Below, piece after piece: positions 2,969-21,507 of a stretch of DNA of 22,788 nt. Location of the stretch: positions 237,937-260,724 of the forward strand of contig NW_003122909.1 of NCBI RefSeq assembly GCF_000003605.2, written 5' to 3'. The position numbers and the translations under genes are program-made. The notes under the pieces were generated by a model. That model ran no database searches and was not told the DNA's origin. It saw only the letters and a program-made list of their open reading frames with translations. The DNA comes from Saccoglossus kowalevskii (Eukaryota > Hemichordata > Enteropneusta > Harrimaniidae). Position 1 is the first letter of the stretch. Each line of letters begins with the position of its first letter.

Positions 2969-3128
2969 ATGGGAGTGTACACTACAAAACCACCAGACGG
3001 AGGATGGGGATGGCTAGTAGTAGCAGGAACATTCATTGTTTACGCACTTTCCTCTGGTTCCATAATGTCCTTCGGTGTCATTTATGTGGCGTTATTGGAC
3101 GCTTTCGGAGAATCTAGGGCTAAAACAG
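2969..3128 (+). CDS. Transporter exon 1: start, family signature, TM1
   Basis: Encodes residues 1-53 plus one base. It contains Pro-Asp-Gly-Gly-Trp-Gly-Trp (9-15) and TM1 (about 16-42). The donor GTGAGT at 3129 leaves phase 1. The ATG has G at +4, and an in-frame TAG directly precedes it. Confidence 0.92.
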
Positions 3129-6100
3129 GTGAGTGGGTTCATAATATGAATTATATAAACATGTTGCTAAGACTCCTAGACCCGAATCATAATCATCGAT
3201 TCAATTACAACATATTTTTATCATTTTAAAAGTAGGAATGATATGGGGTTTTTTAAAGGCGTGACCTTATTTTGATGATTCGTGGAGTGCTTCTGTGACG
3301 TATGCTGCTTTTCCTTGTTTAAGTTATTGTTCGTAATTTTAAAATATAGTATTCTAAAAACACAGATCAAAACATCCAAGATGATGTGAACAGACTTTCT
3401 GATCTTGTTAGATGACACGTTGTGAATTAGGAAACGTCATAAAATCCAAGTATATTCTACTTTCAAATTAGCTCTTGTTGGAACTTTGACGTATATGGTA
3501 ATGGCTCTTGTGAATCCCTATACTGGTGCACTCTCAGATCGTTTTGGTCATCGCCCTGTAGTGGTATGTGGTGGCGTCATTGCATCAGTATCATTGATGC
3601 TGAGTTCCTTTTCTACAAGTTTAACTCAGATGTATATTACTTTCGGTGTAATGACAGGTGAGTTTCAACTCCAAGATGTTAACCAATCGGATTTGTAGTG
3701 CGTGTACACGTGTGATATTAAAACTGATAGAACGCATTTTCCAATTGGCAAAATTGTTTGATAGAATATCAGCAAATTAAGCAAATGCTGGGATACAGTT
3801 TTCGTATTTTGTTATTTCTGCATTCATAGTAAATACAATTGCATTGTTGTCACGTAACCTTACTGGTTTGCTCTAACATTTGGTATTTACTTTACCACTC
3901 TAGGTCTTGGTTATGGCTGTGCTCATTTAGTATCTCTTCATATAGTGAGCAAGTACTTCACAACTAAATTACCCACAGCCACAGGAATCGCTTTATCTGG
4001 CAGTGGCTTTGGAATATTTTTATTTTCCATGGTGACACAGAAACTGTTGGACATTTATGGATGGCGAGGTACATTGATGGTTCTGAGTGGGATGGCTCTG
4101 AACATCTGTGTTGCAGGAATGTTATTCAGACCCTTAATTGTACGCAACACGGAAGAGGATGTTGCAATGCTTACCGAAAAACGGCAAGAAGACAGAACTG
4201 AAGTGGAACAGCGAAATTTCACTACAATCACACCAATCTCATTATCAGTTTGGACTACTAAGTTTGCATCGATCAGGCGTACGGCATCACAGATCTACTA
4301 TTTTTTTGACGAGGTTTATTGTTTTTCACTGTTGAAATTGTTCCAAATGTACCTCCTTCAGCTAAGCGTTTTCCTATCATGGGTTGCAATCATGATTATG
4401 AAAGGTCACGTGGTAGGTTATTTTTATACTGCAATATACATTTTGCTCCCATTTGGTTTTTCTTCAAAAAAAAACAAAAACTGTACGGATTTGCATTGAA
4501 TTATTATTCTACTACGTTTAGCCCTACTAGCGCTATCGATTGAAAATGTTAGGCATTACTCGATCATGAAATAAAGCACTTATACTTTGTTGGCCATAGT
4601 CCAGCGTACTAACGGTGTGGTTGAACGTTAGATGCTTTTATAATTCCAGGTAAAACGAGCTAGAGAGTTTGGAATTGGAGCCTTTCCCGCTGCATCACTA
4701 GTTGCTGTAATGGGTATCAGTCAGACTATTGGTCGCCCACTAGCTGGTATCATTGCCAATCAGAAAGGAGTAAACCGATTATTATTTTACCAGTCTTCCA
4801 TGGCATTAAGTGGAGGATGTATGATCGCTAGCATCTATGCCGACAGCTACCCCGGTATGTGCAAATACACTGTGTGTCCATGAGTATTTAACTAGTACTT
4901 GTTTGAAAATACCTAATATCTATTGACATAACATTACAGTTGAAGTACGGCATATTCAAAAACGTTTTTTTACAAATTTGAAAGTTGTTACTCAAGGCAG
5001 GGGGCAATTATCATGAGGGGGAGGGGTTAAAAATAAATACTACTGACGAGGATTAAATATAGTATATAATAGTTGTTAATAGGAAGCCTCGTGCCAGTTC
5101 TTTATAACTTAGGGGTAATTCTTAAAATAGTGAAATTAACACGCAATATCCAATGAAACCCTTCATATACTGTTTCCAGTGGGGGAAAAATATATGTCAA
5201 AACTATATAGCATAATTAAAAGTTTTAAAGTTGCATTCCTACTTCGTATTGTATGTAGAACACCTCCCATTAGAAATGGTGTGATCAGTTGCTTCGACAA
5301 CAAAACCTGAAATGTTGGTGCAATGAAGTTATCCTGCACTTGCCAGAAATTGTCACGGTGTCTAATATTGTCATAGTGTCTAATATTCAAATCAAACATA
5401 ATTTCATTCTTGTCTTAACTCGGGGTCATTTGGATGTTTGAATTTGCATGACGTACTTGATTATGAAGGGGGCTTCTGAAATCAAATGGAGGACTCAAAT
5501 TTCTCATGACCTATACATAATCTAAACCCTTATAAACTTATGGGTGAATGTAAATAAACTCAACAATAAAACATGACACATGTTTTACATTCGAATCATT
5601 CACAATTTGTCGTTCTTTCTTTTCAGGTCAATTTGTTCTCGTTATTTTTAATGATATATTTAATGGATTCACAACTACTTTGATGAGTGTTCTCTGCATA
5701 CAGTATTTCGGTGTGGAGAAATTTAAGTACACGTATTCTTTATCGCATACAAGTATTGGGCTTGCAATGCTTGTTGGTCCGGCCTTGGGAGGTGAGTTAA
5801 CTCGATCGATGACGCATTTTATTTTCTTCACTTTGATAATGTTATTGTATCACGCATCTAACAAAGTATCTCTCATGGTGTCATATGAACACATACTGAT
5901 TAACATGCAGATTGTATGGGGAAAAGGGTTGTAAGCATTTCGTTGTTGTGAAATTGCCACGTCGTCGGGAGAAAAACAGGATTCGTGGGAGCAAATTGCT
6001 GGATCTGGTATGAAGATTAAAACATGAACGTTACATAATTTCGAAGTTCTATTAATGAACTTCAACTTGTGTAACCCTTATACATACTATGTGGGTTTTT

Positions 6101-6538
6101 TGTGGGCTGCCAACGCACACGTGAGAAGAAAACAATCACCATCAAGTTATATTTATTCATTTTTACGAACTAGTGATAACATATTCAACACAATATGTTC
6201 TGTAATGTTTTTGTTTGTATCGGTTTGCCGACAATGCGACAATATAACATATTGGAATAGAAAACGTTTTCTGTCAGCTAAACATGTCATATGTAAGTGT
6301 CTAGTACAGTCTATTTTGTTTACCCCTTTAAGGTGCAATACGAGATTCTACTGGTGCGTATGTGTGGACTTTCTACCTTGGAGGTTTTTGTTTTCTATTT
6401 GCCGCATTTATCATGTGCTTTATGCCAATAGCCGGTCGATGCCAAGCGCTTAATACGGACAATGACGCCATGCGAACAACAACTTCTGTCGATCACAAAC
6501 CAACCTTGGTTATTGTAGAAAATGAGACATCCGTATAA
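2969..6538 (+). CDS. Monocarboxylate-transporter-like protein (SLC16 family), six exons
   Basis: Exons 2969-3128, 3472-3657, 3904-4412, 4650-4854, 5627-5791 and 6333-6538 join to 477 codons, giving 476 residues, normal for the family. The codon before the ATG is TAG, so the start cannot move upstream in this exon. The SLC16 signature Pro-Asp-Gly-Gly-Trp-Gly-Trp is at residues 9-15, and the Tyr-Phe...Gly-Ile-Ala...Gly motif between membrane segments 4 and 5 is at about 133-150. Twelve membrane segments can be laid out, with a charged cytosolic loop at about 193-258 between segments 6 and 7. SLC16 proteins move small carboxylates or other small organic molecules across the plasma membrane. Residue 33 is Met where MCT1 has the functional Lys38, and residue 310 is Gln where MCT1 has Asp302, while Arg314 (MCT1 Arg306) is kept. 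Proton-lactate cotransport is therefore unlikely and the substrate is open. The C-terminus Glu-Thr-Ser-Val fits a class I PDZ ligand. Confidence 0.93.
3129..3471 (+). other. Transporter intron 1
   Basis: GT...AG intron of 343 bases, AT-rich. I see no exon, repeat or RNA gene in it. Confidence 0.85.
3472..3657 (+). CDS. Transporter exon 2: TM2, TM3, start of TM4
   Basis: Encodes residues 54-115 plus one base and is phase 1 on both sides. It carries the MFS-type loop between TM2 and TM3 (Gly-Ala-Leu-Ser-Asp-Arg-Phe-Gly, about 71-78). Acceptor AG is at 3470-3471 and donor GTGAGT at 3658. Confidence 0.92.
3904..4412 (+). CDS. Transporter exon 3: TM4 to TM7 with central loop
   Basis: The longest exon (509 bases), residues 116-285. 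It covers the end of TM4, TM5, TM6 with the preceding Gly-Trp-Arg-Gly (168-171), the hydrophilic central loop, and TM7. The end is phase 0, with donor GTAGGT at 4413. Confidence 0.9.
4650..4854 (+). CDS. Transporter exon 4: TM8 and TM9
   Basis: Residues 286-353 plus one base. TM8 reads Gly-Ile-Ser-Gln-Thr-Ile-Gly-Arg (307-314); Gln310 replaces the Asp found in MCT1, and Arg314 is kept. The Val-Asn-Arg-Leu-Leu run before TM9 is typical of the family. Acceptor AG is at 4648-4649 and donor GTATGT at 4855. Confidence 0.92.
4855..5626 (+). other. Transporter intron 4
   Basis: GT...AG intron of 772 bases, the longest of this gene. It contains a G-rich GGGGGAGGGG run at 5018-5027. No exon or recognisable repeat is seen. 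Confidence 0.85.
5627..5791 (+). CDS. Transporter exon 5: TM10 and TM11
   Basis: Residues 354-408 plus one base, phase 1 on both sides. The acceptor follows a strong pyrimidine tract (CTTTCTTTTCAG). TM11 ends in the Gly-Pro-Ala-Leu-Gly-Gly motif common in SLC16 proteins. Donor GTGAGT is at 5792. Confidence 0.92.
5792..6332 (+). other. Transporter intron 5
   Basis: GT...AG intron of 541 bases. A long plus-strand reading frame crosses its 3' end into exon 6 in the wrong frame and is a by-product. Nothing else is recognised. Confidence 0.85.
6333..6538 (+). CDS. Transporter exon 6: TM12, C-terminal tail, stop
   Basis: Residues 409-476 and the TAA stop. It begins with Arg-Asp-Ser-Thr-Gly before TM12, as usual in the family. 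The cytosolic tail is short and polar and ends Glu-Thr-Ser-Val, a class I PDZ-ligand pattern. Confidence 0.92.
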
Positions 6539-8519: not shown

Positions 8520-8589
8520 TTAGTATTCACAGATAAAATAACCCAAATTGGAACAGTCACCAGCCACCCATTTATAGCCTTGGGATGTT
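8520..8589 (-). CDS. Lectin exon 14: end of C-type lectin domain and stop
   Basis: Residues 622-644 and TAA (8522-8520). Cys634 should pair with Cys618, and Cys642 in Phe-Ile-Cys-Glu with Cys546. The usual Trp-Asn-Asp calcium motif is replaced by Trp-Val-Ala-Gly-Asp-Cys. The protein ends two residues after the last Cys. Confidence 0.9.
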
Positions 8590-11500
8590 CTGTGATTTGA
8601 AAGAAACCAACAAGTTTTAGTAAAGTTTGAAGTTAATACAGTGAATTGCCACCACGTGTGATTGGTTATTTGACTCCGGTAAACGCTCATTTAAATATTT
8701 ATGCATATATCACCAATAGAACTTACTGCAGTCTTGCGCAGTTTCCGTTCATCGCACTGCTGTAGTCGTCCCAGTTACTGTATCGCATCCGTGATTGGTC
8801 TGGATATACGAATTCTCCTTCCGTTTCGTCTACGTGTGCACCAAACCACCACACATCTGAATACGTGTAAGATAAGAGAGATAGATAGAGATTCAACAAT
8901 TCAAGCTGTATGTTTCTATCTAAATTGAATATTAATAATTGAGGCGTGGTATACCAGATAGTATTTGAAGTATTTTTTTTATCTATTTAATCAATCAATC
9001 ATTCTTGCGTTAGGTTGCTTACTCATCCATTCATTCATTCATTCGACTCTATACATAGAAAATCAAAATAACGTTTGAAAGCGTCAGTTATATTTCTATA
9101 TTACCAGTTTCATCTGCATGTCTAGACTGCACAATCAAATCAACCAAGTAATCGTGGTGATCTAGACTTCGTATGTTTGCTAAGTGAGCTTGATTATTCT
9201 CGCAGTGAATATTTGCATCAGCCCACGTTTTCTGTTCATAGATGAGCTCAAATCTTCCATTTGCTGAATCGAAAAGAATTGTGAATTTGTGTGTTAACCT
9301 GCATTTAACTAGTTATCAAAAAGAGAAGCCTAGTATCAATACCAATGTTTGATGGGCAAGATATCCTTTGCCAATGAAAAACACTAATACGCATGCGTAC
9401 ACTGACTGTTGTAGTACGTACTATTACTGTCAATGCGCATGCGTTATTTATGGTTTCATCAAACCGAATCGAGTAATACAAAATGTAGCTTTCAGCATGC
9501 ACCATCAAACAAATACCCCTCGCAAGCATATTGTACATTTGTGTGAATTATTCTAAGAAAGACAATGTAAATAACGGATGTACGTACGAACTGCCATGAC
9601 TTCAACTTCACACAACGACAGCTGATCCTGGTTGTATACACGAACAGTAACGAAACGTCCAATTGTTCCGGCATTGCAGTTGAAATCTAGCCGGCTCTGG
9701 TACGTCATGGAATACGATACGGTTGGCCCACACTGTTCAGCATCTTCAATGTTCATACTTCGGCCTATGAAAACCTTAGCACCATTTAAACGCTCCCCTG
9801 AAATGACACAAATGACGTGACTCAATACGTACATGCGAGTGTCTGAGTGAATCAGTATTTAAGCTGAAACTTGCAGTAGCAAGACGCATGTGTTTGCCAA
9901 TGCAGATAAAACAAATGCGTCTACTGAGAACAAAGCTCGCAATAGTCTAATAAGATAATCTTTCCGAATATCCCAATCCATACACATGATTATGCAAATT
10001 AAAAATAGTCTACAAATAAATTTCAAATGCACAAAATTATCGCATGATCAATAAAGATAATAGCAATTAATAATAATAATGTACTATGCAATATATACCG
10101 AACGCGCTGTACACATGTCCATGAATTCACCAATGGGGACACTATTGAAGACTAGTTCGTTGTATTCAAACTTTCAAAAGATCTCGAAATGCATTTATAG
10201 TGTAGTTGACAGCATTTACCAAGGTATAACACTGAAACGTAATGGCGTTATAAATGTAGCAATATCATACATGCATATTGACATAAATAAACCAATAAAT
10301 ATAATATGAGCTACCACATCCATACTTACCACAACAATCCAGTCTGTTGTAAATTTTTACCATCTTGACGCAATGTAAAAAGGCGAGGTCAACACGCCAC
10401 CACGAATCCCAATCATGGAATGCTGTATGTGAGCAGCTTCCGGAAAAATAGTAGCCATTTGTATTTCCGTCATTGGCCTTCCAGGTGGGTCCGTGGCTAC
10501 TACTTTGTTCCGAATATCTAAGTAGGGCTACATTTTCAAGTACACCACCTAGAACAATTTATAGTCTTTAAAAATTGGGACAAAGAAGACTGAAACTAAT
10601 TTTGTACCTCGAAATAATATTAAGCGGAATACGTATGTTAGCGCATGTGAAAATACTCAATGCCTACCATCATCGCAGTCGCAAGTGTAGCTATCGTCGT
10701 CGAGTGTGTCACATGTGCCTCCGTGGCAGACGTTTGAATCTTCACAGGGGTGTCCAACTAACAAAAAAAATCAACAACACATTCAGTGGGGGAATGCATT
10801 AACAATATCACATTAACTTACACACAAGTACCTGATTTCGTTTTCAGACGTTTTTCCCATATAATAAGCGAAGGTCTGATTCCCATTGGTTGCCTGGATC
10901 GCAGGTCACATTGTACCCACCCTACAAACTATGTTCATTATATTATTTTGCATCTATGTCTTATGAGAAAGAATATTATTTTGGTGTGCTCAAAAAAATC
11001 ATTGCGGTCACCTTCAAATTCAAGATGGCGTCCATTATGGTTACTGAATGGTAAATGTACACATATCTGGTTAAATACTTATGCTAGAATGTTAGTTTAA
11101 ATGGCTATACGTCAGACCAGGTGCACGTGAAGGGTAAGCATCTGCTGCGGGCATGTCGAACCCGCCCTGATGTTCCTCCAGTCATGTCAGCGAAAAACAA
11201 TGTCAGACAAACAACCACACCAAACCACAAGGACAAACAGTTATTTTATATGATATTAGATAGTGGATCTGTTTTAATGATTCATGTATAATATTGCTCA
11301 CTTCAAATTGACAAATATATACCAAATTGTTTACAAACAATTTGCGCAATGAGCAGTCCATAACTATATGCCGGGCCATGTTTTCCATGACTGTTATTTG
11401 ATCCTATACATACAATGTAGGGTATTATATACTGTATATTTATAAACTGCTGAATTTATTTGCCAGATAGAAAAAACAATTTGCAATTGAAAGTGTGGGT

Positions 11501-14500
11501 GACTTTTATTTTGAAATGCACAATATAAAGTACACAATGGGCAATTAAAGCTATCATTACTAGTTATGAATATTTATAATAATTGTGTGTGGCACACACA
11601 CTAACATGTCAAAGTAACACACACGTTTTAATATTACGATATGAACAGTAACTACTAGTATATAATAATTGGAAATCTGTAATCAGCGAAACAAGGGTCT
11701 TACACGTACACGTACACACTGTTGGACGGAACTTGACCTGTATATTTACCTTTCAGTAGTGTATTTAAGGACATAAAACATTTGCCGAAAATAACAATAT
11801 TTTATTTAGTTAATCATTCGTTTCGCTAATTACAGATAATCGGAAATCTGTAATCAGCGAAACAAATGTCCTACATGTGTGTTATTATGTAAACTGTTGG
11901 CTTTAGTAGTCCAGTGTATACAACGGCATGGAACATTTGTCAAAAATAAAGGTGATTACACCGGAAGAAAGGTCCGTAAAAGAGAGCAGCCCCCATCTTT
12001 TGACCTTGGTTGAACCAGAGAGCCCTCCATACTGATGGTCATATGCAAATTAATACCCCTTTTGGCACGCTTCGGAGCGCTGCACGTTGCGTAGCTGGTC
12101 GCAATATTACTGTTAATTTAAAAATCATCTCCTTTATTTTTTGACAATTGTTTAATGCCGTTGTATACACTACTGAAAGGTGAATGTACTGGTCGAGTTT
12201 CGTCCAACAGTTGTAAATAATATACGAGGAGTACCCTTGTTTCGCTGACTACAGATTTCTGATTTCTGTAATTAGCGAAACGAACCATTTATGTATTAAA
12301 TATTGTTATTTTCGGCAAATTTTTGTAAATACTGTACGTATAAAACCCATTTCCACTGATTACAGTTTAATTTTTATTATGCGTGTTATCCCCGTTTTGT
12401 ATCGTTTTTTTTTTCGATTACAATAAGCCAATGACTCTTTAAATCTCGAAGGGCCTTTTTAAACTGTTTGCCCACTTTTTGGTGTGCATTGCTAATTACG
12501 GTGACAACGCTGCTTTCTGCTGATCACAGTCCCTTGGATTTTTCTGGATATGTACATATGCTGTACATCTCGTGGAAACCTGTTTCATTATCAACCTCAG
12601 TATAGTTCCTGCCAAGTCACCAAATGTGGAATTGCTATTTACTTCCAGTTGCTGAATAAGTGCCATTGTACAAACAAATGGATCATCAGTTATATACATA
12701 AAACGTGGTTTGCAACAAATGTTTTTGAATATCTTAAAGTTTGAAAAGACAATACTTTTATCATCATGAATGTTATTTCGTGAACTTTTTCGTTCACGAA
12801 AACATATATTTAGCCACTTTCACAAATATTCTATCACAAATGGAACCAGCTATATTAGGTTGTACAGGCTTGGTCGCCATCTTGGACGTTAACCTTAGAT
12901 TTGAAGGTCACCGCAATAACTGTTTTCGAGCACACCATACCATAGAGGTGCAAATAAACACAGTGAACTTAGTTTGTAGGCCGGGTACAATGGGAGTGCC
13001 TAGTATGTGAGATCAGACCTTCGCTTATAAATATATCTTTCTATTTTGACTGAGGGCCTCTATAGTTGAGATAATTTTCCTTTTACCTTTGACGTAGAGG
13101 ACGCTATTACGAAAGTCATGGTTACTTATTGGCCTCTTCGATATTCAAATGAAGTCTATTGACAGCTTACTGATATATTATGCAACATGAAAATAGTCAT
13201 ATGACTTGTGGCGCACACTTTGATATTTTTGGCGGAACAGCCACTGTTTAGTTTTGAGTAACGATTTGTGCCATTTTGTGCAAACAAATGTGGTTTGATT
13301 ATTCTTGGGTGTGAATATGCGAATTGAACTCTAGCCACTGTTGTATGGTGAAAATGGATCCACGTCGTGACTGACGAGATGTACAATAATAAAAGTATTT
13401 CATGGATTTCGGTAAAAGCTTTTACATATGTGACTTTTTAAACTTCATTTTTAGAATGACCTGGATTTCAGTCTCAATGGGAAAAACTGATGTTTTGAAA
13501 TCTGATAGACCTTTTGTAATATACAGTGTTGACTGCATTGAACACCATCAAGTACTTTCGAGTGTCAATTTCAATCATTTGGGCCACATTACATTAATTG
13601 GTTGCAGTCATTGACACTTCGTAATTTCCTAAGCTATTATGCAAATATATAGTGTAACCATATCATTTGCAATGGCGCAGGGAAACGGCTGAAGTATTGG
13701 CAATTTTAAATAATGACAGATATTTATTGGTTTCGAATATAATACTTTTTGAAAATTTTCATTTGAAAATATATCTCATGAGTGGTCTGACAATATCATA
13801 TTTATTAAACTGGTGTAGTGAGTCTCGAAACAAACGGAAATTACTACATGAGTTTAATACTTCTGATATTCGATATTCAGAGTCACTCTTGAGACATCTT
13901 CCAAACATCTTCTTCAGGTTTGTCAACTTTTTACATAGTAAACAAAAAGAAGTACAAGAACGCAAACAACGGACGAAAATTCAAAAGCACAAAATAAACG
14001 AATGACAGGCCACAATGAAAAAAATAACAACTGACAAGTACATGGTCAAATCAGCGAAGGGAATGACTTTACAAAGCCAAGGAACAAAGTCAAGGTGTTA
14101 TGTAACCGTGGCTTCGCTCACCAAACCTGATAACGGTAGACGATTACGCCATGGTGTATGAAATGTTAATGCTCAAAATAATATTAATTTAAACTATTTT
14201 CCAAACATTGGAATATATGCTGAAAAGTATTAATGAAGTGTAGTTATTAAGTTCAAACTTATATCGAGTGATTGTTAGGATTCACCGTTTTGAGTTACGA
14301 ATAATAATAATCTACCAGTCATGTACCTTTCTTCTAATCAGTCAATCATGCGGTGTATTGACTCGGTCTATTAATCCGATCGTCATGTATGAGTCTGAAG
14401 CCATACAACCACGACAACAACAAAATGTGTTCTTACCTGGGACCATGACCTGAACCTCACATAAACTGAGATTATATCCTGGTATGGTCGACGCGATTTC

Positions 14501-17500
14501 AACAAAGCGACCAGTTAAATGGCATTCAATTATAATTGTGTCGTGATCAGGATCCTCCACACTGCCACATATCTGAGGCGTTGAATCGTAAGTGGCAGAA
14601 ACAGCTACCTGTGCCCCAAGCATCCAATCAGCTATTCAAGTAATTAAAAGAATTAACAGTTGTTATGTGTCACCTAATCTCTGTTAGTACTGAACACTTG
14701 GACGAACATCAGTGTCAACTTACAGCAACAGTCTTGCCTGTTCAAAATGACCACCTCGGCGATGCAGTACATCTCTCCTAGATCGACTTTCCAATAACTC
14801 GGTGCATCATCCTCAGTTTCCGTATAAGAGCATGACATACCAGCCAGCATATCACTATTGAAAACGCCATCCACTGCTCTGCCGGCGTAGTTGGTGTCGA
14901 CGGTACTTGACTGGATCGCCCATTTATCAAAAGCAACGTTCCTCAACGATGCGCCTGGATAAAATAATTGTTTTGTTGCGCATTACAGTTTACATCAAAA
15001 TTATGTTCATTCTGTTACATCTACTACTAGGTTTGTAGTGTGACTTTGATTATTATACCAGCACAGGCAAATTACCGGTGCGTTTACTTTTCTTTGGCGA
15101 ACACCAGTGCACACAGGGCCCTGGAAATATTGCTCTAGAGTTGCGTTATATTCAATTTTGGCAGAAATCTGTATAACCTATTTCATGGCAAGTGAAGATA
15201 AATTATGGGAGTATACACCATACATCATTATTTGTCTAAAATCCATTGAAACTTGCTCGCTTATTCTGTCTCTGCCATCGCCCACGATGTAGTCAATAAT
15301 TGCCATATGTCGACCAAAAGTGTCATGGTACCTCTTCTCGAAACGTAACGGTAAGAAACTCGCAATGATTTTTTTTTAAATATTTACATCGTTGCAACTT
15401 TGCGGAACTCTAGTCATTAGGTGTGTTGAAAGCACTCCCTCGATTAATTCAATAATGGGAACGCACCGACCAACTGTCCGCGGCTGTGTGTACATAAATA
15501 ACTACAGAACACGAAATTAACCCCTCTATGACCATGTCTGCCACTGGGGCGTTACTCTCATATATAATATAAATAAATTTTAAAACCATTTGATAATCAA
15601 ATAATCAATTAAAATATGAAAACAACCATAATAATATATGTATGGTGGTCTGACAGTGATAAAGATTTTATGTGATTATTGAACACATTTGTGAATATTT
15701 ACTGTAGAATATGGTAACATTTAAAAGTTCGTTCATTAATGTGACATAACAGTTTGTCATAGGTGTTCTTAGATTGCCAGATTCCCTGACAACTGAGTTG
15801 GATGAAAGCTGCAGAACTGTAAACATTGAAGGGTCACATGTACGTTGGTGACACCCTTGGTGCCAACCAACATTATTACCATGGTTACTGCGCGAACAAG
15901 GCCACACTGACATAACCGAAATCGGCTTGTCGATTCAAACACAGCATTATTTGTTAAGCTGGTTTGTGTATGAGAGTGGTCAAGGCCACGAGTGCCCAGG
16001 GATGTTTAGTCACACCGATGTTTCGACTAGTATATTTGCCTATTATCAATGAATAATGTTCATATGACGTTATCATGCCCTTGACATTAAAGCCTCGATG
16101 GCATTCTTTACTTTTCTTCAAAGATTATTTACAGAGAATAGTTTCCATGGGTACAATACATATTGCTGCTCCCGCACAAATGCCATTATGTGAGTTGCAC
16201 TATAACCTTTGTAACGATTGCGAGTCTTTACCATAGAACACGTAAAGTTGTTTATTGCCCGAACGAGGCCTTGAGAAATTATTGTAAACACCATAACAGT
16301 TGTAAATATCTGTGGCCATATTAGTGTTTGATGGTTTCAGCAGGTGTGGTAGCTTATATTCCTGTGTGAGCACTTGGCCGGGAGAATTTAACCCACTGCC
16401 TATCTGATGCAAAGCGAGTGTAAGCGGAACAATTCGCCATACCGTGGTATTGGTACTACATCAGCCCTACGTTATGTGCGTACAACCTCACGAAACATAA
16501 CGAGGTCGTATTTCTCCATTGTTCATTGTACTTTGCTACTTTCTAAGTGGGGAGTTACAGTGAATGACTGTTCAATCGAAACAACCAATAATCCATAACC
16601 CATTCATGACACACGGTCATAATTATTTTACTTGTGAGACGGAGAGTTCTTCAAGCTCAGTTGGACTAAATATGTGTACACTATTTACTTTAAACATTGT
16701 AACAGTCAATTTATTGCATATACGCAATAGTCTAAAACTTACATACGGAACTTTGTTATCTATTCTTTACATTCAACACTGTCTTGTTTGGAGTCCTGTA
16801 GACTTGAAAGGCACATAATGCTAGCTCCCGTAAACTGCCATCTCAACCGACTACAGTAACTACCACATCACTAAACTCTCCAATCAAAATGAATTTTCCG
16901 TCAAAGTAGGTCAACAAGTGTGTATTCCAGATTGTCAATTCATCAACATACGAAATAAGAACTATATCCTTCAGATATTAATTTTAAAATGTTGATATGA
17001 AAGACGTTAAACTTACCTGCGGCTGCGCAATCACAAGAGAATGTGCCGATACCATCAATGCAAAGTCCACCATAGCAAGCACCTGGATAGCAGTCATCTA
17101 CGTTCAAATCTATAAAATGATAATTCAAGTCTGACATGAAAAGTGTACGCAGATGACACATTGTGTGTTGAAAGCGCACACATAGCGTGGTGGTGGTGTG
17201 GTAGAGGCGATAGTAGACGGTAAAAGAAGTGTGCTTAATAAGGGGTTGTTTATTCAGAAACTGTCATAATTCGGGTACCATTTTGGCAATTGGAGTGATA
17301 ATTCGAATAATTTAAAAACAACCTAGAGACACATAGATAAATGAGTCTGAAATATCTGAAATATGGTATGCTGACTTGACGTTGTCCTTCGCAATGACGT
17401 GAGTGCGAACGATGTTCATGTGATATGGTGATTTTTTTTCTGCCTTTGAAAGGATGACATTTCCCAACCCTCATCAACGGTTTGGTGTTGTTGTAGCCTG

Positions 17501-20500
17501 GCAATGTTATTTGAGTGTATCATCATCAAAGTTATATGAGCCACGTTTTTAAATGCATGTCGAAAACATCCCGTGACGTACAATTACTTGTAACGCAACT
17601 GGTTAGGTCATGGTTACCCACATAATTTTCATGAGAGCTGTATTGTGTTATAGTCACTAAATCAGTCGAGTGATTGGTCGGCAAACCTGGAGTGAAATAT
17701 ATATCTACACAAGAAGACCATTTTATATAAAGTGCTTGAAGCTCGTATTTAATTACCATTTTGAGTATAATCCAATAATAATAAGGTATTTAATTGTAAA
17801 ACTACATATGACAACAGGTTTTAAAATAGCCTTAGCTGGGATTTATTCCAAAACATATTATGGCTCACAGATGATTCTGGCAAAAATTATATACACTAAG
17901 CACACAATTGGGAATGCACGTCGTGAATAACTTGTCCGCTAGCTTGAATGTAATAACACACCAGGATTGTAGTGCACTTAAAGCACATAGTAAATAACTC
18001 TGTAGCAGTCATGAAATCTGCCTTTAAATGCACATACAAGGTACATTTCTGACTAGCTGGAATATGTCCAACTACACGTTTTAATTTGTAAATGCTTTCA
18101 GAATTACCAATAATTATATCACGATTGTTTAATAGCTATTATATGATGTAGGAACTCTCAATTGTATGTACATTTGGGAATAAAATACCAGAATTTCGAA
18201 AACCGGCTCACTGCTACCGATTTATGTAAGGTATATGATTTTTTCCTTGCCGTCGTGTTTTTTTTTATTCTCTCCACGATGCGCACCTGCAACCAATCGT
18301 CAGTTCGATCGCGACATTCACGATAATCTGTATTCTTTTATTACCTTGGCATATACACAAACTACACACTAGGACAGGGCAGTGAACTTGGAATGGCAAA
18401 GGAGAAGCAAGACACGAAACCGACTGTATAGTGGTGAACAAAAAACATGAACAAATATGAATAACAACGTTTGGATTTATAAGACATAGAAACTATGCCC
18501 ACGAGGAAGTACTAATCCCAGTACTTGGCTTGGTGCCTTGGCTAATGACTTGAGTTGACGCAAATGAACTTACCGATTTCACAATTTATGCCTACGAAAT
18601 CTGGAAAGCATTCACATGTGTAGCCCACGGCTTCGATTGTGCACGTCCCACCATTTAGACAAGGGTTGTCAATAATACATATACTATTTGCTGAAAAATT
18701 TTAAATGTACATATTGAACATACTTTGATGTTGACAGTCAGTGATATGATTCAAAATTATATTATTATAGATGGGTTAGGTGGTGGTTGTTGTGCCACGC
18801 ATGTGTGCGATTTTTGTTGAGTTGTTGTATTTTTAGCACAAGCGAATACAAGCAAGCATTAATATGAGTTTTCGTTTGATCGCACTGTGCACTAAATGCG
18901 TTTCAACCATACAATAAAATTACTTAGTTAATTTTTGTTATAGACACTTCTTTGTACAGGGTTGATCTGCGCACTGATCAATTCGCCATCTTTTTTCAAC
19001 ATGGAATCCATAACTCGCTCATGCGTGGTGCATCGTTCACCGCTGTTTATAACGACCCTGCTCTCAAAACAACGCATGTGTTTTATCTGTGCTTAGTGAA
19101 ATGCATGTATTGTATGTATTCTGGGAACATAGGGGCAATATTGGAACCGTAGCGTACGCAGTTCTGACGGCAGGGCCATTTTAGGCATGACACGCCTTAC
19201 AGAAAGTAATTATTCAAACATGATCGTACGTATTTCACAGTGGATTCCTTCATATCCGACTTGACAATCGCAAAGGTAACTGTTGATAAGGTCGTCACAT
19301 GTGCCACCATTTTGACAAGGCCCGTCTTCACATTCGTTAATATCTATTGCAATAAAAACAGAAAGACTTACTTTGCTGAACGATTATAATACAATACATC
19401 AAAAACAAATCCGAAAATCATGTTTTTTCAACACACATACACATGTGAAATAAATGACAAAAATTAGAACACCAATAACTCGAAATAAATGCATTTTTCT
19501 AATTCAACCAATAAGGTTTTGTACCCTCGGTCCCATGGCTACAACCGCTGTACAACCTCGGGTCGCAAATTCGTACCCGTTCCACAAAGAGTATAACTAA
19601 AACAGGATATCTTAATGTGTTAGCCAGCATAAAGAAAACTTCAAGCAAATTCTCGAAAGTAAGCAATGTTTGGTGTCATTGCATGTTATTAGGAAATTGT
19701 ATACAATAGAGTGCATAGGCCAACTAGTATGACGTATTCAATAGAATTACATTCTGACATGTTATAGTACGTGTGTGCGCAGAACGAGGTCCAAATGCGT
19801 TTGTTAGCCAATCAAAACCACTTTAGACAACTGACAAATGTCATACTACGTCTCATAGTCTCTTGGTACCACACTTTAATAAATAGGTAACTGTATTCGC
19901 CAACACCAGCTACAGATTGTTGAAACGAAGTTTGCTTTTTGCAAATCTGGAATTTAATATGTAATTTGGCCACCATGTATAATTAATGTACAAGGACTGG
20001 TGTTGGGGAAGTAGAGTGAGTATTCATCATCAACTATTCAATTTGGCTGGAGCGGCATCTCAAACTTAATCCTGTAATATTAGGTGACACATGCCGGTAA
20101 ATTATTGTAACTTCAGCACCATTCTTCAAAAAACATATATTGTTATATTATCAAACGGGTTATATATATTTAATATATAGATAATATGTATTGATCTATG
20201 TAGACATATTTGAACGATCTTCAAACTTATCGATTTCGCAGTTGATGCCACTGAATCCCGCCATGCAATCACAGGTGTAAAGCTCAAGGGTGCCGTTGCA
20301 CGTCCCACCATTCAGACAGGTTTCTGCACCACATGGTGAAACAACTGAAATAAAATCACGTATGAAGTAACGTCAGACAAATGGTGCGGCGTGGAATTAA
20401 TATGGGGCCCCTAAAATGTAGTCCGAAAAAGATTTTCTGTCCGTTCTTTAAACGTCATTTCTCGGACATGCATTGACCGATTTTGTTCATATTGGCGCTG

Positions 20501-21507
20501 ACACGAATCATAAGAGCATACGTTCATTAACTTTTTGTTTCGTTGTCTTGTGACCGACTGACAAAACTTATTCGAGGATGTCAATTTCTCAGGCATGTGT
20601 AGGCAAATTTTATTCAGAATTGAATGATGGATTTATTTGAATGATTTTAGCAGTTATTTTGAGATTTCAAATATAGCCGACAGGCGGCCATCTTCTTAAA
20701 TCGCACAATTTTAACATGTGACCAGCCGTTTCGCGTGAATGCATATTTCATTCTAACTAGTGATTGTTACGTATAATGCGTTACTGAGGAATATCGATTT
20801 GTTTTGTGATTTAAATCAAAACGGAGAACTGGCGACATTGTTGTATATATTCTCTTATGTTCATAACTTTTTCCTGACAATTGTTCCAAGCCAAATTATA
20901 ATGTTCGGTCCTCTAATGTCTCCTCAGCCTAGCGCTATGAGACATGGACTATGTTCACTATTTGTAGTGGTAGTTAGTTTTTTATCGGTAAATTGTCGGT
21001 TGACAGTTTTTTTGGCAGGCTACCTTCACATAAATTAACTCAATGTTTCTCAGTTGTTATATTACATAAAACCAAAGTAGCACCGAATGTTAGCCAATGA
21101 CAACTAGTGTAAATACTTATACCTCGATTTCCAATCTGTGACCCCGTCTCTGATTCCGACGTGATGTTAGTTGATTTCCCTGGTCCCACCACACCAATCA
21201 CAGTACCAGCAATCCCAAGGGCAGTGATGGTCGTAGTAATTCCAACTGCAATTCGCGCTGCTCTACCCCCAATGTTTCCCACGCTCGGCTGGAATAAAAG
21301 TTTAACATAAATCAGATATTGTCCGCAGATTGTGTATACTTAAAAAAAACATCATTTACTAACCCGATGAAGAGATACTGGTGCGTTTCAAACGTATATA
21401 CAAAACCCTTCTGAATAAATACATTATTCGAGTGTTGTCGCGAATACGTACTTTCAAAATGAAAAATGAAGAATATTTACCGTGGATGATGGATGAATTC
21501 TGTTCAT
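8520..21507 (-). CDS. Modular lectin: anchor, EGF x3, (EGF-fucolectin) x2, C-type lectin domain
   Basis: Fourteen minus-strand exons: 21507-21481, 21288-21123, 20344-20231, 19343-19230, 18690-18574, 17109-17017, 14954-14724, 14631-14437, 10757-10668, 10548-10330, 9797-9588, 9263-9105, 8856-8727 and 8589-8520. They join in one frame to 644 residues and a TAA. Order: basic N-terminus; hydrophobic segment 22-44; EGF domains 69-100, 107-138, 145-177 and 186-207; fucolectin/F-lectin domain 1 (about 211-352); EGF 357-380; fucolectin domain 2 (about 383-525); C-type lectin domain 526-644. Fucolectin (F5/8 type C-like) and C-type lectin domains bind glycans, so a role in surface glycan recognition, such as immunity or adhesion, is inferred. 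Arg residues before the hydrophobic segment favour a type II membrane protein, though a secreted form is possible. Sequons are at Asn50, Asn81 and Asn341. The internal introns are nearly all phase 1, as expected of exon shuffling. Least certain are the first exon and the EGF1 donor. Confidence 0.88.
8727..8856 (-). CDS. Lectin exon 13: C-type lectin domain, core
   Basis: Residues 579-621 plus two bases. It carries Trp-Trp-Phe-Gly, Glu-Gly-Glu-Phe and Asn-Trp, then Asn-Cys-Ala-Arg-Leu (Cys618). After Asn-Trp there is no Glu-Pro-Asn or Gln-Pro-Asp motif. The end is phase 2 at donor GTAAGT. Confidence 0.9.
9029..9044. repeat. ATTC microsatellite in lectin intron 12
   Basis: Four consecutive ATTC units, with a related AATC run about 40 bases before. 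Ordinary simple repeat. Confidence 0.8.
9105..9263 (-). CDS. Lectin exon 12: C-type lectin domain, first part
   Basis: Residues 526-578. The Lys-Thr-Trp-Ala-Asp-Ala...His-Cys (Cys546) helix and Ala-His-Leu-Ala-Asn-Ile segment are diagnostic of the fold. A second helix, Tyr-Leu-Val-Asp-Leu-Ile, follows. Phase 1 on both sides. Confidence 0.9.
9264..9587 (-). other. Lectin intron 11 with an intronic foldback
   Basis: A 324-base GT...AG intron, a large part of which is the hairpin described separately at 9389-9443. No exon is seen in it. Confidence 0.8.
9389..9443. repeat. Long imperfect hairpin in lectin intron 11
   Basis: The centre is a perfect 12-base palindrome, TAGTACGTACTA (9412-9423). 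The flanks 9391-9411 and 9424-9442 pair with each other with a few mismatches, and the outermost segments are ACGCATGCG on one side and CGCATGCGT on the other. The total is about 27 bp of stem. It may be a tiny foldback element or an RNA structure. Confidence 0.65.
9588..9797 (-). CDS. Lectin exon 11: fucolectin domain 2, second half
   Basis: Residues 456-525. It opens Gly-Glu-Arg-Leu-Asn-Gly-Ala, so Arg458 completes the Arg-x-Asp-x4-Arg motif. Cys478, Cys496 and Cys518 follow, then the Leu-Cys-Glu-Val-Glu-Val strand. The donor GTACGT is chosen because it is phase 1 like the next acceptor. Confidence 0.9.
9798..10329 (-). other. Lectin intron 10
   Basis: A 532-base AT-rich intron inside fucolectin domain 2. 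No exon or repeat recognised. Confidence 0.85.
10330..10548 (-). CDS. Lectin exon 10: fucolectin domain 2, first half
   Basis: Residues 383-455 with Ser-Cys-Ser-His-Thr (Cys421, His423), Trp-Trp-Arg-Val-Asp-Leu, extra Cys442, and Asn-Arg-Leu-Asp-Cys-Cys (450-455). His423, Arg451 and Asp453 match the fucose-binding motif. Donor GTAAGT. Confidence 0.93.
10668..10757 (-). CDS. Lectin exon 9: EGF domain 5, sixth cysteine absent
   Basis: Residues 353-382; Cys at 357, 363, 368, 378 and 380. Like EGF domain 4, it stops shortly after the fifth Cys and runs straight into a fucolectin domain. Acceptor follows a T-rich tract; donor is GTAGGC. Confidence 0.9.
10864..11033 (+). repeat. Outer inverted-repeat arm, left
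   Basis: Pairs with the complement of 12870-13028. Begins with ATAAGCGAAGGTCTGAT and ends at AAGATGGCGTCC. Confidence 0.65.
11677..11835 (+). mobile_element. Small TIR element 1 (159 bp)
   Basis: Begins CTGTAATCAGCGAAA and ends TTTCGCTAATTACAG, an inverted pair with one mismatch in 15. Size and lack of coding are typical of a miniature inverted-repeat element. It is the most complete version of the unit, and element 3 is a shorter inverted relative. Confidence 0.6.
11848..12254. mobile_element. Small TIR element 2 (407 bp), itself a foldback
   Basis: Begins CTGTAATCAGCGAAA and ends TTTCGCTGACTACAG. Its two halves (11848 to about 11955, and about 12125-12254) are inverted relatives of each other, sharing GTGTATACAACGGCAT and an AATAAAGG run. 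They enclose a distinct central segment (about 11958-12120) with a perfect ATGCAAAT octamer at 12043-12050. Only 12 bases separate it from element 1. Confidence 0.6.
12266..12365 (-). mobile_element. Small TIR element 3 (100 bp), deleted inverted copy of element 1
   Basis: Read on the minus strand it starts CTGTAATCAGTGGAA, then matches element 1 through TTTGCCGAAAATAACAATAT and ends TTTCGCTAATTACAG, but lacks about 60 internal bases. It is separated from element 2 by 11 bases. Confidence 0.55.
12496..12699 (-). pseudogene. Decayed coding fragment inside the inverted-repeat complex
   Basis: An open frame of 67 codons with protein-like composition. It contains Met-Ala-Leu-Ile-Gln-Gln-Leu, then Ser-Thr-Phe-Gly-Asp-Leu-Ala about 14 residues on, and a Val-His-Ile segment. 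This order resembles a block found in large uncharacterised proteins that are repeated in invertebrate genomes, which I recall only by pattern. In those, an Asp-x-Tyr...Ser-Ile-Lys...Glu-Arg motif usually follows; here the frame degrades at that point. No start context, splice sites or continuing domain are seen, so I regard it as a relic carried by the repeat. The family assignment is weak. Confidence 0.35.
12776..12801. repeat. Perfect 10-bp hairpin
   Basis: TTTCGTGAAC (12776-12785) and GTTCACGAAA (12792-12801) pair perfectly around a 6-base loop. It lies just inside the right outer arm of the inverted-repeat complex. Confidence 0.7.
12870..13028 (-). repeat. Outer inverted-repeat arm, right
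   Basis: The reverse complement aligns with 10864-11033. The 17 outermost bases are identical, and the rest is diverged with small gaps. Confidence 0.65.
14437..14631 (-). CDS. Lectin exon 8: fucolectin domain 1, second half
   Basis: Residues 288-352 with Cys309, Cys324 and Cys345, ending in the conserved Leu-Cys-Glu-Val-Gln-Val strand. Trp290 occupies the position of the second fucose-binding Arg/Lys. The 92-base intron before it interrupts the domain right after Cys-Cys, as in domain 2. Confidence 0.92.
14724..14954 (-). CDS. Lectin exon 7: fucolectin domain 1, first half
   Basis: Residues 211-287. It starts with the Asn-Val-Ala-Phe strand and includes Ala-Gly-Arg-Ala-Val-Asp-Gly, Ser-Cys-Ser-Tyr-Thr (Cys252, Tyr254), Trp-Lys-Val-Asp-Leu-Gly, and the hallmark Asn-Arg-Gln-Asp-Cys-Cys (282-287). 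Tyr254 stands where fucose-binding members have His. Cys274 is additional to the eel-agglutinin set. Confidence 0.92.
14955..17016 (-). other. Lectin intron 6
   Basis: A 2,062-base intron between EGF domain 4 and fucolectin domain 1. I looked for an extra exon that could supply the missing sixth EGF cysteine and found none. Short minus-strand frames at 15668-15913 and 16200-16412 show no domain. Confidence 0.75.
17017..17109 (-). CDS. Lectin exon 6: EGF domain 4, sixth cysteine absent
   Basis: Residues 180-210; Cys at 186, 191, 196, 205 and 207 only. The exon ends three residues after the fifth Cys at a good GTAAGT donor and splices in phase into the fucolectin domain, so no sixth Cys follows. 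Cys196-x-Asp198-x4-Phe203-x-Cys205 fits the hydroxylation pattern. Confidence 0.88.
17110..18573 (-). other. Lectin intron 5
   Basis: A 1,464-base AT-rich intron. No exon, RNA gene or clear repeat seen. Confidence 0.8.
18574..18690 (-). CDS. Lectin exon 5: EGF domain 3
   Basis: Residues 141-179; Cys at 145, 151, 157, 166, 168 and 177, a complete EGF domain without the calcium-binding pattern. Acceptor TTTTTCAG; donor GTAAGT. Phase 1 on both sides. Confidence 0.9.
18691..19229 (-). other. Lectin intron 4
   Basis: A 539-base GT...AG intron. Near 19150 it shares the short string GAACCGTAGCGTA with 7492-7504, which hints at a dispersed repeat but is too short to name. Confidence 0.75.
19230..19343 (-). 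CDS. Lectin exon 4: EGF domain 2, calcium-binding type
   Basis: Residues 103-140; Cys at 107, 112, 118, 127, 129 and 138. It begins Asp-Ile-Asn-Glu-Cys, and Cys118-x-Asp120-x4-Tyr125-x-Cys127 fits the Asp/Asn hydroxylation pattern of calcium-binding EGF domains. Phase 1 on both sides. Confidence 0.9.
19344..20230 (-). other. Lectin intron 3, starting with AT
   Basis: An 887-base intron that appears to start ATAAGT and end in a normal AG. No other exon is seen inside. Confidence 0.65.
20231..20344 (-). CDS. Lectin exon 3: EGF domain 1, non-GT donor
   Basis: Residues 65-102; Cys at 69, 74, 80, 89, 91 and 100 make a complete EGF domain with the Leu-Asn-Gly-Gly-Thr-Cys core. The expected phase 1 end falls at 20231, followed by ATAAGT, not GTAAGT. 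The exon would be 114 bases, the same as the next EGF exon. A weak in-phase GT (GTTCAA) lies 15 bases further on and would add five residues. Confidence 0.85.
20345..21122 (-). other. Lectin intron 2
   Basis: A 778-base GT...AG intron between the stalk exon and EGF domain 1. Nothing else recognised. Confidence 0.8.
21123..21288 (-). CDS. Lectin exon 2: membrane anchor and stalk
   Basis: Residues 10-64 plus one base. Arg18 and Arg21 precede a 23-residue stretch of Ile, Val, Ala, Gly and Thr (22-44), fitting a signal anchor. A Ser/Thr-rich stalk with the sequon Asn50-Ile-Thr follows. Acceptor TTTATTCCAG and donor GTATAA are both good. Confidence 0.75.
21481..21507 (-). CDS. Lectin exon 1: candidate start codon and nine residues
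   Basis: ATG at 21507-21505 with A at -3, an in-frame TGA 15 bases upstream, nine codons, then donor GTAAAT. It leaves phase 0, which matches the phase 0 start of the next exon. The short peptide has Arg3 and no hydrophobic run. An alternative first exon further upstream cannot be excluded. Confidence 0.5.

Follow-up and report, generated by a model that had tools for sequence, protein, structure and literature searches.

A Saccoglossus kowalevskii locus predicted to encode one protein with EGF, fucolectin and C-type lectin domains behind an N-terminal hydrophobic segment

Invertebrates commonly have lectins built by domain shuffling. In Drosophila, F-type lectins co-occur with C-type lectin domains (CTLDs), CCP and transmembrane domains, as described in PMC5712786, and lancelet proteins composed of a fucolectin, two C-type lectin domains, CUB and APEC are described in PMC12373286. 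The locus presented here lies in a 22,788 nt stretch of Saccoglossus kowalevskii contig NW_003122909.1 (positions 237,937 to 260,724), hereafter the window, and searches for relatives covered a genome of 4,830 contigs totalling 572 Mb. Fourteen exons on the window's minus strand (21507-8520) join in frame under the predicted splicing into 1,935 nt, which encode 644 amino acids and a stop. The modules are, in order, a 9-residue start exon, a hydrophobic anchor exon, three EGF domains (EGF1-3), EGF4 with fucolectin 1, EGF5 with fucolectin 2, and a CTLD. The first-pass annotation had proposed that fourteen exons join without a frame break, and this was borne out, with every exon found where it had been placed and 644 codons free of stops. 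We regard it as moderately probable that the locus is one gene encoding a recognition protein that is displayed on the cell surface or shed from it, consisting of an anchor, an EGF stalk and two units in which a five-cysteine EGF domain (EGF') is followed by a fucolectin, with binding by fucolectin 2.

The domains were assigned with Pfam on the spliced protein and with phmmer against PDB chains. Pfam yielded PF22633 (fucolectin type) with E 4.6e-28 in two stretches, PF00008 (EGF) with E 4.1e-24 in five stretches, and PF00059 (Lectin_C) with E 2.9e-14 at residues 535-643. Among PDB chains, fucolectin 2 matched FBP32 (8.6e-39) and eel agglutinin 1K12 (2.7e-22), fucolectin 1 matched the same two (3.3e-20 and 1.2e-10), and EGF1-3 matched chiefly Notch and Delta EGFs. 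The CTLD matched 97 distinct sequences at E <=0.1, the best at 8.2e-25, and the best 60 of these 97 are C-type-lectin-like throughout. These matches are far beyond chance, and both fucolectins belong to the F-type domain of ~140 residues. Two different glycan-binding folds in one protein, and a composition of two fucolectin, five EGF and one C-type lectin domain, had been annotated, and both claims are upheld by the Pfam results on the spliced protein, the former by the PDB-chain matches as well.

Each fucolectin is encoded by two exons and the CTLD by three, all on the minus strand, as are the EGF exons. The N-terminal half of fucolectin 1 (14724..14954) carries an extra cysteine (GEMYC) and its C-terminal half lies at 14437..14631; for fucolectin 2, the N-terminal half (10330..10548) carries an extra cysteine (AFLHC) and the fucose triad, and the C-terminal half lies at 9588..9797. 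Both C-terminal halves have profile and PDB-chain matches, as do CTLD exon 1 (9105..9263) and exon 2 (8727..8856), and CTLD exon 3 (8520..8589) carries the stop after FICEY. The four core cysteines of the CTLD, assigned by the usual pattern, are present in NIHC, GNC, GDC and FIC. EGF1 (20231..20344), EGF2 (19230..19343) and EGF3 (18574..18690) have six cysteines each, and EGF2 shows the D/N..Y/F pattern of calcium-binding EGFs. The annotated count of five EGF domains stands, but EGF4 (17017..17109) and EGF5 (10668..10757), the two EGF' domains, have five cysteines each rather than six.

Relatives in the same genome were examined for the architecture. An EGF'-fucolectin query yielded 110 genome matches at E <=1e-4 on many contigs, window exons included, and PF22633 yielded 97 genome-wide, two of them inside the window, with clusters on contigs C4257, C352 and C2403. 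Three relatives were read as genes. C785 (L055) contains a hydrophobic exon, three EGFs, EGF', a fucolectin and CTLD exons 1-2, and close to the contig end a stretch (VACSNTFKFICEY, E 3.3e-4) that is a candidate for the final CTLD exon. C844a (L057, 317-320 kb) contains a hydrophobic exon, EGFs, EGF', a fucolectin and then a stop, and no CTLD match was found in the 2.8 kb examined behind the fucolectin. C844b (L080, 339-345 kb) contains two EGFs, EGF', a fucolectin and three CTLD exons ending in FICEYDE and a stop. At C1647 only CTLD exon 2 gave a match, and an exon-3-like stretch is present; the count of genes with fucolectin and CTLD in the genome is a lower bound. Two EGF'-fucolectin units are present only in the window gene among the four genes read.

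The 13 junctions of the window gene have phase 0 at the first, phase 1 at eleven and phase 2 at the last, and splice sites giving these phases are readable in C785, C844a and C844b. Because the three relatives keep the domain kinds, the order and the splice phases, the analysis supports one gene with the anchor-EGF-fucolectin-CTLD architecture rather than two, and the annotated single protein combining all modules gains the same support. Hence, the architecture belongs to a small family of genes. A division into an upstream gene with EGFs only and a downstream lectin gene, or into still more genes, would fit the introns of 2.1 and 3.7 kb that set the modules apart; as three relatives keep these modules joined, with order and phase unchanged, we consider it extremely improbable. 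What weighs against the single gene is that the splice sites of the relatives were chosen among several AG/GT candidates.

Fucolectins 1 and 2 of the window share 36% identity with each other, and each shares 34-42% with the fucolectins of C785 and C844a; the CTLDs of the window gene and C785 have 42% identity across an alignment of 95 columns. The two window domains do not group in a tree built from 27 fucolectin rows, which gives no sign of a recent internal duplication; both stand on long branches, and 13/23 inner branches are drawn open. Elsewhere in the family, at L057 1445-1832, two adjoining EGF exons are near-identical in coding and splice-site sequence, which is probably a recent exon duplication.

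The anchor exon (21123..21288, minus strand; phase 0 in, phase 1 out) encodes basic residues followed by ~22 hydrophobic residues. Among the values listed, its best 19-residue hydropathy is 1.86, compared with 2.25 for the hydrophobic exon of C785 and 2.87 for that of C844a. About 21 residues, including three Arg, precede the hydrophobic stretch, and in C785 and C844a KKLRR or NRRRK stands immediately before 20-odd hydrophobic residues. The phases of the exon are also readable in these two relatives, and in C844b a hydrophobic stretch lies at the edge of the sequence read, where the anchor exon is incomplete. From hydropathy and charge, the segment would most likely act as a type II signal anchor. 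A point against this prediction is that the window anchor peptide matches only itself genome-wide at E <=1; therefore position, phase and character are common to the relatives, and the sequence is not.

If the hydrophobic segment were instead a long, cleaved signal peptide, the product would be a secreted opsonin or agglutinin, soluble as FBP32 and eel agglutinin are. According to PMC5712786, these two are oligomeric lectins that lack a membrane portion, which favors such a product together with the modest hydropathy of 1.86. However, the arginine-containing leader of ~21 residues, and the basic clusters that resemble signal anchors in C785 and C844a, argue for retention in the membrane, and we consider a secreted lectin possible but unlikely.

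With regard to sugar binding, the fucose motif published in PMC5712786 is HX24RXDX4(R/K). Fucolectin 2 carries it with an intact triad (SCSH...NRLDCCGER), although its H-to-R spacing is one residue wider than in both aligned solved chains; the X24 of that source is exceeded by fucolectin 2 and, by our own count, by both solved chains. Fucolectin 1 departs from the motif (SCSY...NRQDCCSDW) in that Tyr replaces His and Trp takes the place of the second basic residue, so that two of the three basic triad residues are lost and the first Arg is kept. In the relatives, the motif is partly kept in C785 (Trp in the last place) and in C844b (Arg replaces His), and C844a keeps H, R and, in the last place, Lys. 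The cation motif h2DGx, also taken from PMC5712786, fits each fucolectin in part (ANDGN in fucolectin 2, AVDGV in fucolectin 1).

The window CTLD reads YKWVAGDC and has neither EPN/QPD nor WND, the motifs of Ca-dependent sugar-binding C-type lectins. The CTLD of C844b reads EPSDANHEDC and WNDVPC, that of C785 keeps EPS..EDC, and C1647 has WND. Since only the triad of fucolectin 2 is whole and the CTLD is without the canonical motifs, no more than one canonical site for fucose is expected on each chain. Hence, of the multivalent receptor suggested by the first-pass annotation, the lectin folds stand, and multivalency has to be toned down to a canonical triad in fucolectin 2 only.

The exon model was further evaluated at its ends and splice sites. 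The predicted first coding exon (MNRIHPSST, 21481..21507, minus strand) ends in phase 0 with donor ACG/GTAAAT, and an in-frame TGA begins 18 nt 5' of the predicted ATG; the start codon and this 27-nt exon are predictions. At the other end, AATAAA lies 12 nt past the stop codon of CTLD exon 3. We rejected a fifteenth exon that would separate fucolectin 2 from the CTLD, near 9500 on the minus strand, where the reading resembles the usual CTLD start; it could be fitted in only with an intron of ~31-39 nt or by breaking the frame, and C785 and C844b have the same CTLD start in phase after the fucolectin.

Acceptors are AG in 13/13 introns and donors GT in 12/13. While the frame of the annotated exon model stands, its splice sites are thus GT-AG at 12 of 13 introns only, and the exception, the EGF1 donor, was missing from the annotation. 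Three donors weigh against the model. The EGF1 donor at 20231 (window 20228-20231) reads G/ATAAGT, where the homologous EGF3 donor reads G/GTAAGT, and the donors of EGF2 and of the second fucolectin 2 exon are weak, at 1.7 and 1.1 bits on a rough home-made donor matrix. On the same matrix, the sole same-phase GT alternative before a stop at EGF1, at 20216, scores -6.7 bits. The frame survives with AT-AG splicing at 20231, with the weak donor at 20216, or with skipping of the exon. The EGF1 donor may be a real non-canonical site (possibly of an AT-AG intron), an allele, or an assembly error.

The same donor also fits a decaying or hypomorphic copy, which would have lost the EGF1 donor, the C-type motifs and the fucose residues of fucolectin 1. 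GT is present not only in the gene's own EGF3 but also in EGF1 of both C785 and C844a, and the relatives retain EPS..EDC in the CTLD, and WND in C844b and C1647, whereas the window gene has neither. Decay is nevertheless improbable in our assessment, given 14 exons and 644 codons are without stop or frameshift, EGF1-3 keep six cysteines each, the CTLD keeps its four core cysteines, and every splice outcome considered at EGF1 keeps the frame.

A further feature concerns the EGF' exons. Five-cysteine EGF' exons precede the fucolectins of the window (EGF4 and EGF5), C785, C844a and C844b. The cysteine noted above in both window fucolectins, at the fifth residue of the strand between VDL and NRxD, is present in 5/36 distinct fucolectin exons: in 5/5 fucolectins behind a five-cysteine EGF', versus 0/31 of the others. 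One of these 31 (L007) has a cysteine two residues further on, in a frame interrupted by a stop, and the aligned solved F-type lectins, FBP32 and eel agglutinin, have no cysteine at the position. The 36 exons were drawn from the window and 27/48 loci searched; the other 21 loci yielded no row, being repeats of another or a misfit to the pattern, and 32 further loci had been excluded beforehand, among them CTLD-only, mitochondrial and copied ones.

Because Cys5 of EGF' lacks the partner that it normally has, and an extra cysteine co-occurs with it, a disulfide between the two is the simplest reading, for which we see about even odds. Several points weigh against it. The 31 other fucolectins, with no EGF' seen, were examined over 0.5-3 kb upstream, mostly ~1.5 kb, and EGF4 of the window stands 2 kb before its fucolectin. 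In addition, the five EGF'-linked fucolectins are paralogues rather than independent samples, another EGF exon with five cysteines stands in C844a before EGF' rather than before a fucolectin, and the C785 fucolectin has another unpaired single cysteine where others have CC. If the disulfide is true, EGF' and fucolectin would form one composite lectin module, which Pfam divides in two, and the extra cysteine would be a simple sequence mark for finding this module in other animals.

The proposed protein would be held by an N-terminal type II anchor, with the EGFs as a stalk that keeps the lectin domains well away from the membrane, and each fucolectin would be carried as a unit with the five-cysteine EGF' ahead of it, perhaps disulfide-tied. 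The intact triad makes fucolectin 2 the likely fucose-binding site. Because they have lost the canonical sugar residues, fucolectin 1 and the CTLD probably bind other ligands, or act as spacers or protein-binding surfaces. Judging by the families, the likely role would be the binding of fucosylated glycans of microbes or cells, in innate defense or adhesion. The O-fucose consensus C-X4-S/T-C is present in 3/3 six-cysteine EGFs of the protein and, as EGF1-3 carry it and fucolectin 2 keeps its triad, cis or homophilic binding could occur; that a disulfide-locked EGF'-fucolectin unit reads O-linked fucose on EGFs of the same or neighboring family members, in adhesion or recognition, is nonetheless a long shot.

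Other features were observed in the window and genome. A Major Facilitator Superfamily transporter, presumably monocarboxylate-transporter-like, has exons on the plus strand at 2969-6538, where four of the five exon-like open reading frames tried match PF07690 at E <=0.01, two of them above the curated cut-off. For five longer open reading frames within the large introns, Pfam gave no match at E 0.01. The 3.7 kb intron holds nested inverted repeats at 10906-12995, with arms at 10906-10965/12936-12995, 10992-11024/12894-12926, 11718-11791/12138-12211 and others, which probably represent a transposon insertion. In the mitochondrial locus L059 (C4830), TGA is read as Trp in what we take to be COX1 and a neighboring ND1-like gene, which lie on opposite strands, and AGA, ATA and AAA stand at positions where we would expect Ser, Ile and Lys. 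This codon use argues against the echinoderm code and may fit a hemichordate, the opposite strands of the two genes making the latter tentative.

In comparison with known systems, the closest genes are those of the same genome: C785, C844a and C844b share EGFs and EGF'-fucolectin with the window gene, and two of the three share the CTLD, yet each has one EGF'-fucolectin unit, not two. MsaFBP32 and the eel agglutinin AAA share the F-type domain and, with fucolectin 2, the fucose triad; they are not known to have an EGF, CTLD or anchor, and the aligned chains have no cysteine at the extra position. Selectins are cell-surface proteins with CTLD and EGF, but are type I, with an N-terminal CTLD, CCP repeats and no known fucolectin, whereas the window protein has a C-terminal CTLD, an N-terminal hydrophobic segment and no CCP.

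Drosophila furrowed and CG9095 differ from the window protein in domain order. Like it, both combine an F-type with a C-type lectin domain according to PMC5712786, which describes the CTLD of CG9095 as being without canonical sugar residues, as is that of the window. They have CCP repeats where the window protein has EGFs; given no CCP/sushi family is among the 9 families from the Pfam scan of the spliced protein at E up to 1, the window protein is not of the furrowed/CG9095 type. The lancelet fucolectin-CTLD-CTLD-CUB-APEC proteins are also unlike it, with an N-terminal fucolectin, CUB and APEC, and no EGFs named in the available part of PMC12373286. The annotation knew of no named protein with this order, and neither was a published account of anchor-EGF-(EGF'-fucolectin)-CTLD found in a literature search judged by titles and abstract starts, with animal protein databases outside its scope. 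Fucolectin and C-type lectin in one protein are thus already published, and the EGF-rich, N-anchored order was not found in print in that search. The window gene would accordingly represent a further way of joining fucolectin and C-type lectin, in which an N-terminal hydrophobic segment is followed by an EGF stalk that carries them, in a small family with common phases.

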